Of a stretch of DNA of 63,275 nucleotides, positions 17,552-25,733 are shown one piece after another. A program made the position numbers and the translations under genes. This stretch comes from an uncultured Anaeromyxobacter sp. (lineage in GTDB: Bacteria > Myxococcota > Myxococcia > Myxococcales > Anaeromyxobacteraceae). Under the pieces are notes generated by a model. That model was not told the DNA's origin, did not search any database, and saw only the letters and a list, made by a program, of their open reading frames with translations. The stretch spans positions 1 to 63,275 of the forward strand of contig CAIOAK010000046.1 of NCBI GenBank assembly GCA_903855945.1. The letters run 5' to 3'. Each line of letters starts with the position of its first letter. Within the stretch, counting starts at the first letter, position 1.

Positions 17552-17673
17552 CGGGCAACGATACTCCACACGTGTGCCGAGCAGCCCGCTCGAAAAAGTG
17601 TACCGGTCCCGAACGGTCGCACGGGGCATGCCGCATGCATGATCGATTTCATGAGTCTTCAACAGGAGAACGT

Positions 17674-18150
17674 ATGCACGCCCAGGCCTCTCAGTTCCTC
17701 CGCACCGCAGCCCGCGTGGAGTTGCAGGCGGAGGAGATCTACACCGTGATGGCGGAGACCTTCTTCCGCTCGGCCGTCCTCCGCGACACGTTCGTCCGGC
17801 TCGCCTCGGAGGAGAGGCAGCACGCGATGCGCCTGCGGTTGCTCGAGCGGCACCAGTCCCACCTGCCCTGGTCGCCGGCGACCCTCAAGAAGATGACCGC
17901 ATCCCTCGCCGAGATGTCGGACGCCCTGGCGGTGATTCGCAAGGAACTGGCCTCCGCCACGGCCCGGCGCGACCCGTACGCGATGCTCCGGCGGCTTGGG
18001 GAGGTGGAGCAGCGTTTCTCCCTGGTGCATGCCGAGGAGGCTGCTGCCGAAGGCGACCCGGGGGTTCGCGAGCTCTTCGCCGCGTTGGCTCGCCAGGACG
18101 CGGAGCACGGGCGGTTCATCGCCTGGGCGAAGTCGAAGGCGGCCGCGTAG
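17674..18150 (+). CDS. Ferritin-like/rubrerythrin-like di-iron helical protein
   Basis: A 158-aa four-helix protein. Helix 1 has ARVELQAEEIYTVMAETF and helix 2 has VRLASEERQHAMRLRLLE, giving E..E plus EExxH iron ligands. Later helices have SLVHAEEAAAEGDPG and ARQDAEHGRFIAW, supplying a second Glu set and a final ExxH-like pair. This is the rubrerythrin/ferritin-like layout without the rubredoxin domain, so a role in peroxide or oxygen handling or iron binding is likely. AGGAGA lies before the ATG at 17674. It stands alone between the convergent lipoprotein and a degenerate Cys-rich gene. Confidence 0.75.
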   Translation: MHAQASQFLRTAARVELQAEEIYTVMAETFFRSAVLRDTFVRLASEERQHAMRLRLLERHQSHLPWSPATLKKMTASLAEMSDALAVIRKELASATARRDPYAMLRRLGEVEQRFSLVHAEEAAAEGDPGVRELFAALARQDAEHGRFIAWAKSKAAA

Positions 18151-18822: not shown

Positions 18823-20277
18823 TCACGGGCAGGGGCGCGCGCGAGCGGCGGGGCTCGACGTCCGGAGCCACGCCAGGGTCGCGTCGCGGAGCCGGAGATC
18901 GCCGCGCACGGTGAGGGCGCCCGGGGGCAGGCGCGCGAGCACCCGGCGCAGCCCGTCACCGCCCACCGCCAGGAACTCGTTCATCGCCACGGTGTAGGTC
19001 TTCCCCGGGTCGAGCGGGACTCCGGCGCAGGTGCGGGCCGCCTCGCCGTCGAAGAGGAGCCCCGCCACCTGGGGCGCCTCGTGGCGGAAGCCGGACAGCG
19101 CGCGGAGCGCCGCGAGCAGGTCGGCCCCGGTCATGCGGATCACCGCGAGCCCGTCGTCGAAGGGCATCGCCTCGTAGAGCTGGCCGTAGCGGAGGTCGCC
19201 CGCCGGCAGGGATGTCCGGAGCGCCCCGGCGTTCACGAGGCCGAACTCGGCCCCCATGGCCGATCGGGCCGCCTGCGCAGCGGCCGCGCCCAGCGGCGAG
19301 ACCCGGTCGCGGCTTCGACCCAGCGGTCGGTCGAGGTGGACGCCCACGGGGCGGCGCAGCTCCGCCTCGGTCTGGGCCATCCAGGGAGCGATCGCCGCGG
19401 TCACCTTCGGGTCGGCGAAGGCGTCGCCGCCGGCGCCGTCCCCCGGGCGGATGGCGAGGTGGAACCCGGCCGGCTCCCCCCGGCAGAGGGTGACCCATCC
19501 CACCGACGCCCCGTGGGGCGCCCCCTGGACGAGGGCCACGCCGTTGACGCGGTGGGAGAGGAGGCCGTGAGTGTGGCCGCCCACGAGCGCGTCCACGAGA
19601 CCGGGGGGCAGGGCCCGCGCCAGCCGGAAGAGCTCGGCCTTCGGATCGCAGCTGGAGAGGTCGTCCGGCGATGCGGCCTCCCGGCAACTGCCGCCGGCGT
19701 GGACGAGCCCCACCACGATCTCGGCGCCCCGGGCGCGCAGGTCGCGGGCCTGCCGCTCGGCCTCCGGCTCGAGCTTGCCGAAGCGGAGCCCCGCGGCGTT
19801 GGCCGGCATCGTCTGCTTCGGGGTGGAAGGGGTGGCGAGTCCGAAGACGCCGACCACCGGGCCGCCGGGCAGGCGAAACAGGCGGCTCGGCGCCAGGCCC
19901 GGCCAGGCGGGCATCTGGCCGGTGCGGGCGTCGCGGAGGTTGGCGGCCAGGGTGGGGTAGGGGGCCGCGGCGATGCGCCGGCGGGCCGCCTCCTGTCCGA
20001 AGTCGAGGTCGTGGTTTCCGAGCGCGGCCGCATTCACTCCCAGTGAAATGAGGCCCGCCACCACCGCATCCCCCCGGGAGAGCGACGCCTGCAGGGTCCC
20101 CTGGGCCGAGTCTCCTGCGTCGAGGAGGAGGGCGGGCCCGCGGGCGCGGACCGGAGCGATGGCGCCGCCGATGCCGGGGAGCGCGTCGATGCGCCCGTGC
20201 AGGTCGGACAGGGAGAGGATCTCCACGCACGAAGCGCCGGCCGAGAGGGAGAGGGCGAGGACTGTGGCGAGGAGCAT
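18823..20277 (-). CDS. Periplasmic 5'-nucleotidase/bifunctional metallophosphatase
   Basis: A 484-aa UshA/5'-nucleotidase-family protein. After a signal peptide (MLLATVLALSLSAGAS) the metallophosphatase domain has SLSDLHGRID, LLLDAGDSAQG, ALGNHDLDFG and GGHTHG, which supply the Asp, His and Asn ligands of the two-metal site. The 5'-nucleotidase C-terminal domain has the 'GLVNAGALRTSLPAGDLRYG' type segment and FDDGLAVIRMTGADLL. It should release phosphate and nucleosides from nucleotides outside the cytoplasm. It diverges from the cytochrome operon, and a FNR-like box lies between them. The gene carries one copy of the TTCAC-N5-GTGAA palindrome. Confidence 0.9.
   Translation of the reverse strand: MLLATVLALSLSAGASCVEILSLSDLHGRIDALPGIGGAIAPVRARGPALLLDAGDSAQGTLQASLSRGDAVVAGLISLGVNAAALGNHDLDFGQEAARRRIAAAPYPTLAANLRDARTGQMPAWPGLAPSRLFRLPGGPVVGVFGLATPSTPKQTMPANAAGLRFGKLEPEAERQARDLRARGAEIVVGLVHAGGSCREAASPDDLSSCDPKAELFRLARALPPGLVDALVGGHTHGLLSHRVNGVALVQGAPHGASVGWVTLCRGEPAGFHLAIRPGDGAGGDAFADPKVTAAIAPWMAQTEAELRRPVGVHLDRPLGRSRDRVSPLGAAAAQAARSAMGAEFGLVNAGALRTSLPAGDLRYGQLYEAMPFDDGLAVIRMTGADLLAALRALSGFRHEAPQVAGLLFDGEAARTCAGVPLDPGKTYTVAMNEFLAVGGDGLRRVLARLPPGALTVRGDLRLRDATLAWLRTSSPAARARPCP
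20033..20047. repeat. TTCAC-N5-GTGAA palindrome, copy 3
   Basis: Exact copy (spacer TCCCA) inside the nucleotidase gene. Here it is the longer form TTCACT-N3-AGTGAA. On the coding (minus) strand it reads Ser(TCA)-Leu-Gly-Val(GTG)-Asn(AAT), the same codon phase as copies 1 and 4. Confidence 0.7.
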
Positions 20278-20418: not shown

Positions 20419-20733
20419 TTGGGTGTTCGTCTCGAACGGCTCGTCCAGATCATGAGGTCGGGCCTCAAGGTGGAGAAGCTCCCGCCGCCGCCCCTCTCCG
20501 ATCCCGCTCCCACAAGGCGGTCCGGGCTCCGCTCGATCTTCGCCGCCGAAACCCTGCCCGAGACCCCCCCCGCGCCGCCCCGGTCCCACGCTTCCCTGTT
20601 CTCGGTGCTCTTCGCCCGGGAGTCCCTGCCACTCGATCCGGAGCGCCCCCAAGTGCACCGCAACTGGCTCGCCTTCCTGTTCGCCCCCGAACGCCTCGAC
20701 CCGCCCGGTGGCTCCGGGCCGGAGGTCCGCTGA
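20419..20733 (+). CDS. Small protein with three F-A-x-E-x-L repeats, first gene of the cytochrome operon
   Basis: A 104-aa soluble protein without Cys or membrane segments. It has three copies of a short motif separated by Pro/Arg-rich linkers: SIFAAETLPE, SVLFARESLPLD and FLFAPERLDPP. The general form is [IL]F-A-x-E-x-L-x-P. The TTG at 20419 has GGAGG seven bases upstream and is preferred; an in-frame ATG at 20362 would add 19 residues but lies in the likely promoter. The stop TGA abuts the cytochrome ATG. The family is not recognised; the repeats suggest binding of several identical surfaces, for example during assembly of the electron transfer complex. Confidence 0.55.
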   Translation: MGVRLERLVQIMRSGLKVEKLPPPPLSDPAPTRRSGLRSIFAAETLPETPPAPPRSHASLFSVLFARESLPLDPERPQVHRNWLAFLFAPERLDPPGGSGPEVR

Positions 20734-21198
20734 ATGGATCACGCAAGGCACGTCTTCCGCATCGTTCTCCTGGTCGCGATCATCCTCGCCGTCGTGCTCC
20801 TGGCGCGCGGCTTCCTGGTGCCGAAGAGCTACGGGCTCTACGGGCGCTATCGCGGAGCCAGCGTGGCCGAGCAGATGAACCTGCGCCCGCCGATGCACGC
20901 CGGCGCCGCAGCTTGCGCCGACTGCCATGAAGACCAGGCCAAGAAGCGCACCGCCGGCGCCCACAAGAACGTGAGCTGCGAGATCTGCCACGGTCCGCTG
21001 GGCGCCCACGTGAAGGCCGACGGCTCGGTGGTGAAGCCCCCCATCGACCGCTCCTTCACGCTCTGCGCGCGCTGCCACCGCAAGATCGAGGGGCGCCCCG
21101 CGAAGTTCCCGCAGGTGGTGCTCGACCAGCACGTGAACGGGCCGGTCGAGGGCAAGGTCTGCCTGCAGTGCCACGATCCGCACTCGCCCAAGCCCTGA
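20734..21198 (+). CDS. Membrane-anchored tetraheme cytochrome c (CbcS-like)
   Basis: 154 aa. Residues 8-29 are one uncleaved membrane anchor (VLLVAIILAVVLLARGFLV). The periplasmic part has four CxxCH heme sites at residues 61-65, 82-86, 111-115 and 143-147 (CADCH, CEICH, CARCH, CLQCH) and extra His residues for bis-His ligation. Next come a Tat-exported Fe-S protein and a NrfD membrane protein. That order matches Cbc4 (CbcS-CbcT-CbcU) of Geobacter, which moves electrons between the quinone pool and periplasmic carriers. The equivalence is inferred from layout. ATG directly follows the upstream stop. Confidence 0.85.
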   Translation: MDHARHVFRIVLLVAIILAVVLLARGFLVPKSYGLYGRYRGASVAEQMNLRPPMHAGAAACADCHEDQAKKRTAGAHKNVSCEICHGPLGAHVKADGSVVKPPIDRSFTLCARCHRKIEGRPAKFPQVVLDQHVNGPVEGKVCLQCHDPHSPKP

Positions 21199-21209
21199 GA
21201 GAGGACACC

Positions 21210-22004
21210 ATGAGCGACTGTCACGACGGGTGCAACGGAAGCCGCCGGGAGTTCCTCTCCGGCACCCTCAAGCTGGCCGGCGGCGCAGTGGTCACCGTCA
21301 TCGGAGGGGCGGCGCTCGCCTCCTCCGGTGGCTCCGACGGCGCCGAGGCCTCCCACCCGGGCGGCGGCGAGTACGACTGGAACGAGCACCTCTGGGCCTA
21401 CCTGGTGGACACCACGAAGTGCATCGGCTGCGGCTCCTGCGTGCGGGCCTGCAAGGCCGAGAACGAGGTGCCGGACGGCTTCTTCCGCACCTGGATCGAG
21501 CGCTACGTGGTGGGCATGAACGACAGCCACGTCGACTCCCCGAGCGGCGGCATGGACGGCTTCCCCCCGGTGCAGGTGGGCTTCGCCGCCACCAAGTCCT
21601 TCTTCGTCCCCAAGATCTGCAACCACTGCCGCGCCACCCCGTGCACGCAGGTGTGCCCGGTGGGTGCCTCCTACCGGACCAAGGACGGCGCCGTCCTCGT
21701 GGACAGCGACAGCTGCATCGGCTGCGGGTACTGCGTGCAGGCCTGCCCGTACGGAAGCCGCTTCATCCACCCGGCCACGCACACCGCCTCGAAGTGCACC
21801 TGGTGCTACCACCGCATCACCAAGGGGCTGAAGCCCGCCTGCGTCACCGTCTGCCCCACCCAGGCGCGCCAGTTCGGCGATCTGAAGAAGGAGGGCGACC
21901 CGGTGCGCGGGACCATCGAGCACGAACGCGTCCAGATCCTGCAGGGACACCTGCTCACCGAGCCGCAGTGCTACTACACGAACCTCGACAAGGAGGTCCG
22001 GTGA
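21210..22004 (+). CDS. Tat-exported 4Fe-4S ferredoxin subunit (CbcT/HybA/PsrB-like)
   Basis: 264 aa. The N-terminus carries a Tat signal, SRREFLSG, with Arg12-Arg13 followed by a hydrophobic helix. Four Cys clusters for [4Fe-4S] centres follow: CIGCGSCVRACK, CNHCRATPCTQVCP, CIGCGYCVQACP and a CTWC...CVTVCP set. This is the DmsB/PsrB/NrfC pattern of a periplasmic electron wire that docks on a NrfD-type subunit. It lies between the tetraheme cytochrome and the NrfD gene, and its TGA shares a base with the next ATG. No molybdopterin catalytic subunit is nearby, so it should pass electrons between quinol and the cytochrome. Confidence 0.9.
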   Translation: MSDCHDGCNGSRREFLSGTLKLAGGAVVTVIGGAALASSGGSDGAEASHPGGGEYDWNEHLWAYLVDTTKCIGCGSCVRACKAENEVPDGFFRTWIERYVVGMNDSHVDSPSGGMDGFPPVQVGFAATKSFFVPKICNHCRATPCTQVCPVGASYRTKDGAVLVDSDSCIGCGYCVQACPYGSRFIHPATHTASKCTWCYHRITKGLKPACVTVCPTQARQFGDLKKEGDPVRGTIEHERVQILQGHLLTEPQCYYTNLDKEVR

Positions 22005-23224
22005 TGCCCGAGATCAGCGGATTCGCCTTCCCGAACGACATCCACGTCACGTGGAGCCTGATGATCGTCATGTACCCGTACATCACCGGGTTCGTGGCCG
22101 GCTCCTTCATCGTGACGTCGCTCTACCACCTCTTCGGCCGCCAGGAGTTCAAACCCGTGGCCCGGCTCGCCATGGCGACGTCGTTCGCCTTCCTCCTGGT
22201 GGCGTCGCTGCCGCTCCAGCTGCACCTGGGGCAGCCGCAGCGCGGGCCGTACGTCATCATCACCCCCAACTTCACCTCGGCCATGGCCGGCTTCGGCATC
22301 CTCTACTCCTTCTACATGCTGGTGCTCGTGCTCGAGCTCTGGTTCGTCTGGCGGCAGGAGATCATCGACCGCGCCCGACGAAGCCGCGGATTCAAGCGCA
22401 CCTTCTACGCCACGCTGGCGCTCGGCACCTACGACACCTCGCCCGAGGCGGTGGAGATCGACCACAAGGCCATCATGATCCTGGCCGGGATCGGCCTCCC
22501 GGCGGCCTGCATGCTCCACGGCTACGTGGGCTTCATCTTCGGCGCCATCAAGGCCAACCCCTGGTGGTCCACCCCGCTCATGCCGGTGATCTTCCTTCTG
22601 TCGGCGGCGGTCTCCGGCATCGCGCTGCTCATCATCATCTACCAGGTCTTCGCGAAGCTCGACCGCCGCCCCGTGGTCGCCACCTGCGTCCAGGCGCTCG
22701 CCAGCTGGCTCTGGTTCTTCCTCATCCTCACCATCACGCTCGAGGAGCTCGAGCTCATCGTGATGGCCTACGAGAAGTCGGAGTCCTGGCTCATCATCTC
22801 GGAGCTCCTCACCACCCGGCTCTCCTTCTCCTACGTGACGATGCAGATGATCGTGGGCGGCCTCATCCCGTTCATCCTGCTCGCGGTGGTGGTCCTCATG
22901 AACCGCTACCTGCACGAGAAGGTTCGCAACACGCTGGCCACGGTGGCGGCGTTCCTCACGCTGATCCAGGTGTTCGCCATGCGCTGGAACATCGTGATCG
23001 GCGGGCAGCTCCTCTCCAAGTCGCTGCGCGGACTCCGCTCCCCCTACGAGCCGGAGATCTTCGGGCGCGAGGGTGTGCTCATGGCCATCGCCCTCTTCGT
23101 GGCCCCCTTCGTCATCCTCTGGATCTTCGACCGGGTGCTCGGCATCGAGGAGCCCGAGGGAGGCGCGGACCATCCGCCGGCCGCTCCGACCGCAGGGCAG
23201 GCCGCGGCCGGCCACGCGCCGTGA
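22004..23224 (+). CDS. NrfD/PsrC-type quinone-interacting membrane subunit (CbcU-like)
   Basis: 406 aa with about nine or ten membrane helices from residue 12 on (WSLMIVMYPYITGFVAGSF, LAMATSFAFLLVASLPL, FGILYSFYMLVLVLELWFV, and others). NrfD family members bind quinol and hand electrons to a periplasmic Fe-S subunit, here the preceding gene; some also move protons. The H-x-x-x-x-P-x-R-like loop 'PLQLHLGQPQRG' after the second helix is typical. The tail is Ala/Pro-rich and cytoplasmic. The stop overlaps the next gene by 4 bp (GTGA), so translation is coupled to a large DUF2339-like protein. Confidence 0.88.
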   Translation: MPEISGFAFPNDIHVTWSLMIVMYPYITGFVAGSFIVTSLYHLFGRQEFKPVARLAMATSFAFLLVASLPLQLHLGQPQRGPYVIITPNFTSAMAGFGILYSFYMLVLVLELWFVWRQEIIDRARRSRGFKRTFYATLALGTYDTSPEAVEIDHKAIMILAGIGLPAACMLHGYVGFIFGAIKANPWWSTPLMPVIFLLSAAVSGIALLIIIYQVFAKLDRRPVVATCVQALASWLWFFLILTITLEELELIVMAYEKSESWLIISELLTTRLSFSYVTMQMIVGGLIPFILLAVVVLMNRYLHEKVRNTLATVAAFLTLIQVFAMRWNIVIGGQLLSKSLRGLRSPYEPEIFGREGVLMAIALFVAPFVILWIFDRVLGIEEPEGGADHPPAAPTAGQAAAGHAP

Positions 23225-24987
23225 CGTCGGACGCGCCTCCGGGAGAGCCCGGCACGGGGGAGGGGATGGTGGACACGGCCTTGCTCGCGGCGCGTCTCGC
23301 CGATCTGGCGGACGTGGTGGCGCGGCTGGAGAGCCGGGTGGCTTCGCTGGAGCAGGCGGGGCCGCAGCGCCGCTCGGCCGCGCAGGCTGCGCTGAACCGG
23401 TCGGCCGCCCCGTACCGTCCGTCCGCCTCCAAGGAAGGGACCTTCGACGCGGCGCAGGCCACCCGCATCCTCTCGCTCGGTGGCCGGTCGTTCCTGGTCC
23501 TCGCGGGCGCCTTCATCCTCCGGGCCGTCACCGACTCCGGCACCATCCCGGCCTGGGCGGGCGTGGGGCTCGGCTTCCTCTACGCCGGCGTCTGGATGTT
23601 CATGGCCGATCGGGCCGGGAAGGCCGGCCAGCAGCTCTCGGCCGGCTTCCACGCCGTCCTGGTGGTGATGATCGGATTCCCGCTTCTCTACGAGGCCACC
23701 AGCCGCTTCCGGCTCTTCTCGCCGGCCGGCGCGGCGGCGGTGCTCGCGGCGCTGACCGCGGCCGCGCTGCTCCTGGCCACGCGGCGGATGCTGCCGTCGC
23801 TCGCCTGGGTGGTCTCGCTGGGCGGCATCGTGACCGCGCTCGCCCTGATGCAGAAGGCGAACGGACAGCTCGTCCCGGGCGCTCTCTACCTCGTGCTGCT
23901 CGGCGTGGCGGCCCTCTGGATCGGTTACGTCCGCGACTGGACGGGGCTCCGCTGGCCCACGGCCCTCGTCGCCGACCTGGTGGTGCTGCTCGTCGCCGTG
24001 CCGGCCGCCAAGGAGGGCGCCGCCGGCGCGCTGCTCGTCCAGACCACCCTCGTGGCGCTCTTCCTGGGCAGCTTCGCGACCCGCACGATCTACCTGGGGC
24101 GCAAGGTGGTGCCCTTCGAGATGATCCAGACCGCCGCCGTCATCGGCGTGGGCATCGGCGGCACGGTCTGGGTGGCCGTGCGCTCGGGCATGGGGCAGGC
24201 GGGCTTCGGCGTGATGGCGCTCCTCACCGGCGTGGCTGCCTACGGGCTGGCCTTCGCCTTCGTGGAGCAGCGCCAGAAGATCCGGGAGAACTTCTACTTC
24301 TACACGTCGGTCGCGATCGTCTTCGTCCTCGCCGGGACGGCCCTCGTCCTCGCCGAGCCGGCCCGGTCGCTGGCCTGGGGCGTGCTCGCGGTCGGCATGG
24401 GGTTCCTCTCGTCCCGCAAGTCGAGCCGGACCCTGGCGGTCCACGCGGCGGCCTACGGGCTCGCCGCCGCCTTCGGGAGCGGGCTCGTGCCGCACTCGGT
24501 GGGTGCCCTCTTCTTCGGGGGCAGCGTCGACTGGCGCACGAGCGCCGGGACCCTCGCGGTGCTCGTCGCGCTGGCCGTGAGCGCGGCGCTCGCCGACAGG
24601 GTCCCCCGCTCGAGCCTCCTCGAGCGCGTTTCCCCCACGCTCGTGGACGTCGCGATCGCGCTCGGCATCGCCGGGACGCTCGTCGCGTGGCTGGCGCCCC
24701 TCGCGGCCGGCGGTGGGCCGGCGGCGCTCGCCACTCTGAGGACGGTCGTGCTCGTCGTGGTGGCGCTGGCCGCGGCCGCGCTCGGCCGGCGGGAACTCCA
24801 CGCGGAGGTGGCCTGGCTCGCCTACCCGCTGCTCGCCTTCACGGGGCTGAAGATGCTCCTCGAGGACCTGAAGCACGGACGCCCGGCCACGCTGGTGCTC
24901 GCGTTCGCCTGCTACGGCCTCGCGCTCATCCTGGTCCCGCGGATCCGGGCGCGGGGTGTTGCGGCCGCGAAACCGGAAGGCTCGTAA
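23221..24987 (+). CDS. DUF2339-like polytopic membrane protein
   Basis: 588 aa. The first 80 residues are soluble, with a short coiled coil (ADLADVVARLESRVASLEQA). The rest has about 14-16 membrane helices, nearly all Ala/Leu/Val, ending in 'LVLAFACYGLALILVPRIR'. The layout (short coiled coil, then many helices with conserved 'LKMLLEDL' before the last pair) fits the DUF2339/YccA-like group, whose function is unknown. GTG 23221 overlaps the NrfD stop, so it probably belongs to the same operon. A later in-frame start near 23266 is possible. Confidence 0.65.
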   Translation: MTSDAPPGEPGTGEGMVDTALLAARLADLADVVARLESRVASLEQAGPQRRSAAQAALNRSAAPYRPSASKEGTFDAAQATRILSLGGRSFLVLAGAFILRAVTDSGTIPAWAGVGLGFLYAGVWMFMADRAGKAGQQLSAGFHAVLVVMIGFPLLYEATSRFRLFSPAGAAAVLAALTAAALLLATRRMLPSLAWVVSLGGIVTALALMQKANGQLVPGALYLVLLGVAALWIGYVRDWTGLRWPTALVADLVVLLVAVPAAKEGAAGALLVQTTLVALFLGSFATRTIYLGRKVVPFEMIQTAAVIGVGIGGTVWVAVRSGMGQAGFGVMALLTGVAAYGLAFAFVEQRQKIRENFYFYTSVAIVFVLAGTALVLAEPARSLAWGVLAVGMGFLSSRKSSRTLAVHAAAYGLAAAFGSGLVPHSVGALFFGGSVDWRTSAGTLAVLVALAVSAALADRVPRSSLLERVSPTLVDVAIALGIAGTLVAWLAPLAAGGGPAALATLRTVVLVVVALAAAALGRRELHAEVAWLAYPLLAFTGLKMLLEDLKHGRPATLVLAFACYGLALILVPRIRARGVAAAKPEGS

Positions 24988-25088: not shown

Positions 25089-25733
25089 ATGCCTACGAGA
25101 GCAATCGCCATCGAGGACGACGAGGCCGTATCCCGCCTGATCGCCCAGGTGCTGACGGCGCACGGGTTCGAGATGTGCGGTACCGCGGCCACCGGCGAGG
25201 AGGGCATCGCGCTCGCGAAGCGCGAGGTGCCCGACGTCGCGCTGGTCGACCTGGGCCTTCCCAGGATGAGCGGGGAAGACGTGATCGCCGCCATCCGCCG
25301 GGAAGTCCCGAAGACCCAGTGCATCGCGCTCACGGCGGTCGACATCCCGGCCCGGGTGCTCGGCGCGCTTCGCGCCGGGGCGGCCGGCTACATCTTGAAG
25401 CCCTTCCACGCGGGGGAGCTGGCCCGTGCGGTCGAGGAGGTCCTCCGGGGCGACTCGGCCCCCATCAGCCCCCGCGCGGCCAAGGTGCTCCTCTCCGAGC
25501 TTCGCGGCGACGCGCCGGACCAGCGGAACCACGGCCCGCCCCTCTCCAAGCGGGAGCGGGAGGTCCTCGAGTTGCTCGTCCACGGCCACACCTACGCCGA
25601 CGTGGCCACCGCGCTCGGGATCGCAGAGGGCACCGTTCAGACCTACGTGAAGCGGATCTACGAGAAGATGGACGTCTCCACGAAGGCCGAGGCCGCGCTC
25701 CTCGCCGTCGCCCGCGGCCTGGTGAGGCCGTAG
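25089..25733 (+). CDS. NarL/FixJ-type response regulator
   Basis: A 214-aa two-domain transcription regulator. The receiver domain has the acidic pocket (IEDDE), a phosphoacceptor Asp in ALVDLGLP, a Thr switch (ALTAVD) and the conserved Lys in YILKPF. The C-terminal LuxR-type HTH reads PLSKREREVLELLVHGHTYA to VQTYVKRIYEKM. No histidine kinase gene is adjacent, so it is an orphan within this window. It lies about 100 bp after the DUF2339-like gene. A GGCCGGCC pair forms a possible hairpin after its stop, before the next promoter. Confidence 0.9.
   Translation: MPTRAIAIEDDEAVSRLIAQVLTAHGFEMCGTAATGEEGIALAKREVPDVALVDLGLPRMSGEDVIAAIRREVPKTQCIALTAVDIPARVLGALRAGAAGYILKPFHAGELARAVEEVLRGDSAPISPRAAKVLLSELRGDAPDQRNHGPPLSKREREVLELLVHGHTYADVATALGIAEGTVQTYVKRIYEKMDVSTKAEAALLAVARGLVRP

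Follow-up and report, generated by a model that had tools for sequence, protein, structure and literature searches.

Operon layout and core genes

Five genes running in one direction (+) occupy positions 20419-24987 of the window, by which we mean the whole stretch of 63,275 nucleotides analysed. They form an operon in the order REP, CYT, FES, NRFD and a DUF2339-like gene; the earlier note had proposed such an operon, and all of its genes are present and co-directional:

20419..20733, +: REP, a 104-aa repeat protein with a TTG start and four putative docking-motif units, of a family restricted to one NrfD clade
20734..21198, +: CYT, a membrane-anchored tetraheme cytochrome of the c3/c7 type, CbcS-like (Pfam, four CxxCH, tail motif)
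21210..22004, +: FES, a Tat-exported Fe-S protein with 16 cluster cysteines, CbcT/PsrB-like (Pfam Fer4_11; PDB 2vpw_B, E 5.7e-48)
22004..23224, +: NRFD, an NrfD/PsrC-type membrane subunit with the quinol site, CbcU-like (PF03916, E 5.2e-38; NrfD tree)
23221..24987, +: DUF2339-like protein, a polytopic membrane protein with an N-terminal coiled coil, an optional partner

REP starts at the TTG at 20419, seven bases 3' of a GGAGG ribosome site. The ATG of CYT (20734) directly follows the REP stop, with a gap of 0, the NRFD start overlaps the FES stop by one base, and the DUF2339-like ORF starts with a GTG at 23221 that overlaps the NrfD stop. A search for a sigma-70-like promoter for the operon found none, and terminator-like sites at the operon are not clearly more numerous than in shuffled sequences.

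CYT matches the Pfam families Cytochrom_c3_2/Paired_CXXCH and has four CxxCH motifs, hence four c hemes, the number looked for in a CbcSTU cytochrome. FES opens with the twin-arginine start SRREFLSG, and its 16 cysteines fall into four groups of four, which suffices for four 4Fe-4S clusters. The order c cytochrome, Fe-S protein, NrfD/b-type subunit is also seen in relatives' loci, and the likening of the tetraheme cytochrome, Fe-S protein and NrfD to the CbcSTU gene order, made when the operon was first noted, held up. The NCBIfam equivalog cut-offs were missed for NrfC (149.8 bits against 377.6) and NrfD (50.6 against 347.6), for the DsrO and DsrP of DsrMKJOP (149.6 against 200 and 32.1 against 350), and for TtrB of tetrathionate reductase (180.4 against 416). 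Since all of these equivalogs are missed widely, CbcSTU-like is the most fitting name for the core, judged by gene order and composition; it is of a known kind. A quinol:cytochrome c role appears to fit its parts.

REP is a family of evenly spaced repeats

REP had first been read as carrying three F-A-x-E-x-L repeats. The repeats are there, but their number is higher: a position matrix from all relatives gives four units, of which a matrix from other phyla alone recovers three.

20446..20484, +: REP unit 1, residues 10-22, Glu19; diverged, matrix score 13.1 with all relatives, missed with the other-phyla matrix
20521..20559, +: REP unit 2, residues 35-47, Glu44; matrix score 22.1
20593..20631, +: REP unit 3, residues 59-71, Glu68; matrix score 22.0
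20662..20700, +: REP unit 4, residues 82-94, Glu91; terminal form W-L-x-F-L-F-x-P-E-x-L-D, matrix score 26.2

When the window protein was shuffled, at most two units were obtained in 2000 trials. As a DNA pattern, FAxExL is found four times in the window, three of them within REP (shuffle mean 0.3).

Across 34 homologues the matrix identified 149 units, with 2-8 units per protein, whereas shuffled proteins gave a mean of 1.7 and a maximum of 5. The consensus, [GS][FLW]LRWL[FL][AS]PExLP, reads as a small residue, Phe/Leu/Trp, Leu, Arg, Trp, Leu, Phe/Leu, Ala/Ser, Pro, Glu/Asp, any residue, Leu and Pro. Conservation among the 149 units reaches 95% for the Glu/Asp and 83% for the Leu after the next residue. 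The typical period is 24-25 residues, and 109 of 115 intervals measure 23-28 residues; linkers within one REP protein, however, are only 17% identical (motifs 40%), so that the spacing is maintained while the linker sequence is not. In the REPs of Phycisphaerae (L084, L085, L089, L093, L150), several units read E-x-C-P instead of E-x-L-P, with a Cys-Pro pair that we take to resemble the haem regulatory motif.

We found neither a signal peptide nor a membrane segment in REP, and no homologue has a 19-residue window above 1.6 on the Kyte-Doolittle scale. The AlphaFold model (pTM 0.21) has no fold, with short helices at three places only. Within the genus the protein evolves fairly fast (dN/dS 0.35-0.58 in six pairs), dN being lower than dS in all six; in the same pairs the motifs do not evolve clearly slower than the linkers.

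The best Pfam match of the window REP has an E-value of 0.15, and NCBIfam returned none at E 1. Eight homologues gave no NCBIfam match at E 0.1 and a single Pfam match at 0.056, far under cut-off, and the sequence search of the PDB found no relative. In the literature on NrfD/CbcU/CbcS, repeat or scaffold proteins and respiratory complexes, none of the papers that our searches listed describes REP, as judged by title and start of abstract, and our searches found none linking DUF2339 with NrfD; most subscription papers lay outside the scope of both. We thus found REP to be a family without a Pfam or NCBIfam model, and it would be the new part here, as a dedicated repeat protein of a CbcSTU-like complex.

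REP accompanies a single NrfD clade

A protein with REP units is also encoded in the ORF before CYT in 18 genomes of the window's family, that is, in all those where the region was read. With a REP profile we also found it upstream of CYT in Hydrogenedentota, Spirochaetes, Phycisphaerae, other Planctomycetota, Holophagae, Sulfomarinibacter and others. This search covered the 80 best-scoring of 583 loci that an NrfD alignment had picked up in named genomes, a set that more distant NrfD modules lie outside. In one Planctomycetota locus (L088), REP is about 3 kb upstream and another cytochrome lies between. NrfD-type quinol dehydrogenases lacking a catalytic partner were met in many phyla. In five loci (L208, L095, L104, L121, L137), a second Fe-S/NrfD pair adjoins the first.

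All 34 REP-linked NrfDs fall into one clade of 37 (support 0.999) in a tree of 97 NrfD sequences, from which L076-L079 were left out as duplicates of L057, L060, L064 and L066. REP is present in 34 of 35 assessable modules inside this clade versus 0 of 54 outside, the modules with upstream DNA cut off (two inside, six outside) being counted as not assessable. The one exception inside the clade is L087, whose ORFs, when read, included no REP. Profile scores separate cleanly: all REPs score at E 3.3e-13 or better, and the next best match is at 0.16.

At least 25 of 885 genomes of Myxococcota, Planctomycetota and Acidobacteriota carry REP (at least 19 of 195, 3 of 294 and 3 of 396, respectively). 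These counts are lower bounds, since at most 10-25 first-look candidates were scored per genome; the Myxococcota set includes the window's own genome, and the other two sets each include a centre chosen for having REP. All 25 REPs adjoin the module, although in G813 the one module gene within reach was CYT. The link survives rearrangement: the REP of G246 lies 3' of NrfD on the opposite strand. A further 15 genomes, from other lineages, gave 24 REP matches, which in each genome fall together at a single place. At the thresholds used, no second REP site was found in the 885 scanned genomes or in the 15 others. The earlier note had suggested a phylogenetic profile of REP with the three-gene core, and in the genomes scanned no REP turned up away from the module.

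The DUF2339-like protein is recurrent but optional

The same note had named the fifth gene a DUF2339 protein overlapping the NrfD stop. The overlap stands, but the family match is that of a distant relative: the window protein scores 20.4 bits (E 2.5e-4) against PF10101 (DUF2339), over the membrane region and below the Pfam cut-off of 33.6. A relative in L086, 39% identical to it, passes PF10101 at 38.6 bits, and a fragment in L091 scores 26.6 bits. Foldseek gave no match to its fold at E 0.001, and structure alignment with VIA-align returned generic helical repeats (best Z 13.8, rmsd 4.5, 176 aligned residues, a designed protein). Sequence searches yielded mainly coiled-coil matches to the N-terminus.

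Of the 34 REP modules, 21 have the gene nearby, as do 3 of 60 modules from outside the clade. Its place varies: it lies after NrfD in most members of the window's family, before REP in L091 and in L065 and L067, whose genomes belong to the same genus, and upstream in divergent orientation in L090, L098 and G882. For a gene present about once per genome, it is linked to the module far above chance, in three arrangements. A seeming NrfD-DUF2339 fusion in L068 was ruled out, as a stop codon lies between the two. The flanking DNA covered holds no DUF2339-like gene in 13 of the 34 REP modules, two of which end at a contig edge. In the class as a whole, 25 of 147 genomes have the gene; eight of these 25 have no NrfD of this kind (E 1e-30), and in G029 it is about 43 kb away from the module. 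Five copies without an NrfD module or far from one have differing neighbours: for four of them, these are a response regulator, OmpA and MurJ, a GIY-YIG protein, and proteins of no Pfam family. The fifth (L195) is flanked by a multiheme cytochrome on either side; its genome, G086, has no NrfD of this kind at E 1e-30.

Occurrence of either extra gene away from the module had been put forward as evidence against their belonging to it. REP was not found away from the module in the genomes scanned, whereas the DUF2339-like gene occurs alone and is missing from 13 of 34 REP modules in the DNA covered, which rules it out as an obligate partner. It is a recurrent, optional partner or neighbour of the module.

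Where REP may act

We predicted NrfD topology from hydropathy and the mean Lys+Arg content per loop over 97 sequences, with no structure behind it. On this prediction, 12 of the 16 residues that REP-linked NrfDs conserve and that two other groups seldom have lie on the cytoplasmic side (Fisher p 0.001). When the full REP clade is set against all the rest, 10 of 16 special residues are cytoplasmic, for a background of 135 of 383 (35%). Among REP-less clades, the ten with at least 10 sequences have cytoplasmic shares of 0-0.38, except one with only 2 positions, and when all clades of 8-45 sequences are treated alike the REP-less shares are 0-0.44, again apart from one with two positions. Subclades within the REP clade show a weaker bias (0.34-0.63). 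The main REP-clade residues are R126, R128, R132, Q214, V297, R308, N309 (present in all REP-linked sequences) and T310. Two predicted loops are putative docking surfaces:

22343..22477, +: NrfD loop, residues 114-158, predicted cytoplasmic; R126, R128 and R132 are REP-clade-specific; proposed docking surface
22892..22948, +: NrfD loop, residues 297-315, predicted cytoplasmic; V297, R308, N309 and T310 are REP-clade-specific; proposed docking surface

A motif in the cytoplasmic tail of CYT, [KR]Hhx[RK], occurs in 34 of 34 REP-linked cytochromes versus 8 of 54 REP-less ones. At a 0.85/0.35 threshold, only 1 of 154 positions in CYT and 8 of 264 in FES are REP-clade-specific, so there is no strong sign of a periplasmic interface. 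In L077 (1190-1831, +), one ORF joins REP, minus its last unit, to the cytoplasmic end of the CYT anchor; this fusion comes from a single contig with coverage 2.2. These sequence patterns point to an action of REP at the cytoplasmic face. The NrfD residues may also merely mark descent, as one clade amounts to one event.

A proposed multivalent cytoplasmic partner for a quinol dehydrogenase

The reading we favour, to which we give a probability of about 0.5, is that the core works as a quinol:cytochrome c oxidoreductase and that REP, a multivalent protein with evenly spaced repeats, grips it on its cytoplasmic face and holds or clusters the complexes. NrfD would take electrons from menaquinol, a direction of flow that we infer from the families involved; the periplasmic FES would relay them to the anchored tetraheme CYT, which would hand them on to other periplasmic multiheme cytochromes. 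REP would be a dedicated, cytoplasmic and mostly unfolded partner, in which each unit of 24-25 residues provides one short amphipathic docking motif (GFLRWLFxPExLP) for the cytoplasmic face of NrfD. The dock would probably be formed by NrfD loops 114-158 and 297-315, possibly with the [KR]Hhx[RK] tail of CYT, and the acidic residue of the motif may pair with the clade-specific arginines of NrfD. As REP has 2-8 units at a fixed distance, it would most likely line up several complexes, held side by side by a ruler-like linker. Since REP has many motifs and the complex presumably one NrfD, a partner other than NrfD is possible. The DUF2339-like protein would be an optional membrane partner.

The most specific version of this reading is tentative: REP would be a molecular ruler, a disordered chain that docks onto NrfD through motifs set 24-25 residues apart and arranges 2-8 quinol dehydrogenases in short strings or clusters on the membrane's inner face. 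Repeat number would then set string length, and respiratory complexes in several phyla would have a dedicated multivalent organiser. REP, a small protein that marks one clade of NrfD dehydrogenases without a catalytic partner, gives a handle on how that clade is organised; the membrane side, the interface residues and the number of units are all sharply predicted.

Conserved neighbours that would point to an electron acceptor were sought in the REP loci examined, and no single partner emerged. Large multiheme cytochromes adjoin four Phycisphaerae modules (L085, L089, L093, L150) and the Planctomycetota module L088; the L080 module adjoins cytochrome c assembly genes, and other loci have TonB receptors or RHS proteins. 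In the window, a 5'-nucleotidase/UshA-SoxB-like metallophosphoesterase (18823-20277, -) is divergent from REP and is kept in three other genomes of the genus, a rubrerythrin-like protein is encoded at 17668-18150 (+), and a NarL-like response regulator (25089-25733, +) lies just 3' of the operon; both genus members covered there have a 95-96% identical protein in this position.

Is a lasting, multivalent grip the only role compatible with these data? The alternative that fares best, though we consider it unlikely, is that REP is an assembly factor absent from the finished complex, its motifs keeping a transient hold, from the cytoplasmic side, on newly inserted NrfD or cytochrome before the Fe-S subunit is added after its Tat export. 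REP is small, cytoplasmic-looking and clade-specific, it is encoded first in the operon and translated just before CYT, and the cytoplasmic bias of the NrfD residues fits equally well. However, a chaperone has no need of 2-8 regularly spaced units in an array, and closely related REP-less modules manage without REP. Even if REP were only an assembly subunit, the family would provide a reliable annotation marker for this module.

Amphipathic units (mean moment 0.448 versus 0.376 in shuffles) rich in Trp, Leu and Phe would also suit a peripheral membrane protein that surrounds the complex at the membrane surface and shapes or marks the membrane, with no specific protein partner. This is rather improbable: 95% of units keep the acidic residue, net charge varies from -16 to +13 across homologues, and a family tied so strictly to one NrfD clade should have a specific partner. 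Less probable again is a regulator or inhibitor that reports on or tunes the quinol dehydrogenase from the cytoplasm, for example via the NarL-like response regulator encoded next to the operon here and in two other members of the genus, as REP has no sensor domain and the response regulator gene is absent from the loci of other genera examined. Finally, REP might serve the DUF2339-like protein, the two forming a separate membrane unit beside the oxidoreductase; both genes share the operon and often lie close together elsewhere, but their distribution makes this very unlikely, with REP modules lacking the gene in the DNA covered (two Spirochaetes, five Phycisphaerae loci and L088) and DUF2339 occurring without REP.

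Comparison with known systems

CbcSTU (Cbc4) of Geobacter sulfurreducens comprises a tetraheme c cytochrome, an Fe-S subunit and an NrfD/b-type subunit, with no catalytic subunit, according to the parts of PMC11434368 and PMC10989804 consulted. The window core shares its gene order and its absence of a catalytic oxidoreductase subunit, a likeness drawn from order and composition and not from Geobacter sequences. The same parts of PMC11434368 and PMC10989804 name three subunits and neither a repeat protein nor a DUF2339 protein, whereas the window operon has REP and a DUF2339-like gene.

By sequence, FES is closest to PDB 2vpw_B, named NRFC PROTEIN, and NRFD shares the family PF03916 with the PsrB/PsrC and NrfC/NrfD systems. 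However, no PsrA or NrfA catalytic gene is found among the five genes of the operon, and its proteins score far below the NrfC/NrfD cut-offs. Likewise, the window's fifth protein resembles PF10101 proteins through a weak match over the membrane region, below the cut-off that its L086 relative passes.

For REP itself, the closest comparison may be one of working principle, not of sequence relation. EPYC1, which acts on Rubisco, and the FAM21 tail, which acts on retromer, are multivalent motif-array linkers, made of an unfolded chain with a short repeated motif and free linkers. Their partners are not integral membrane respiratory complexes, and the spacing in REP is very regular. Should REP indeed cluster complexes, these linkers would have a counterpart in bacterial respiration.
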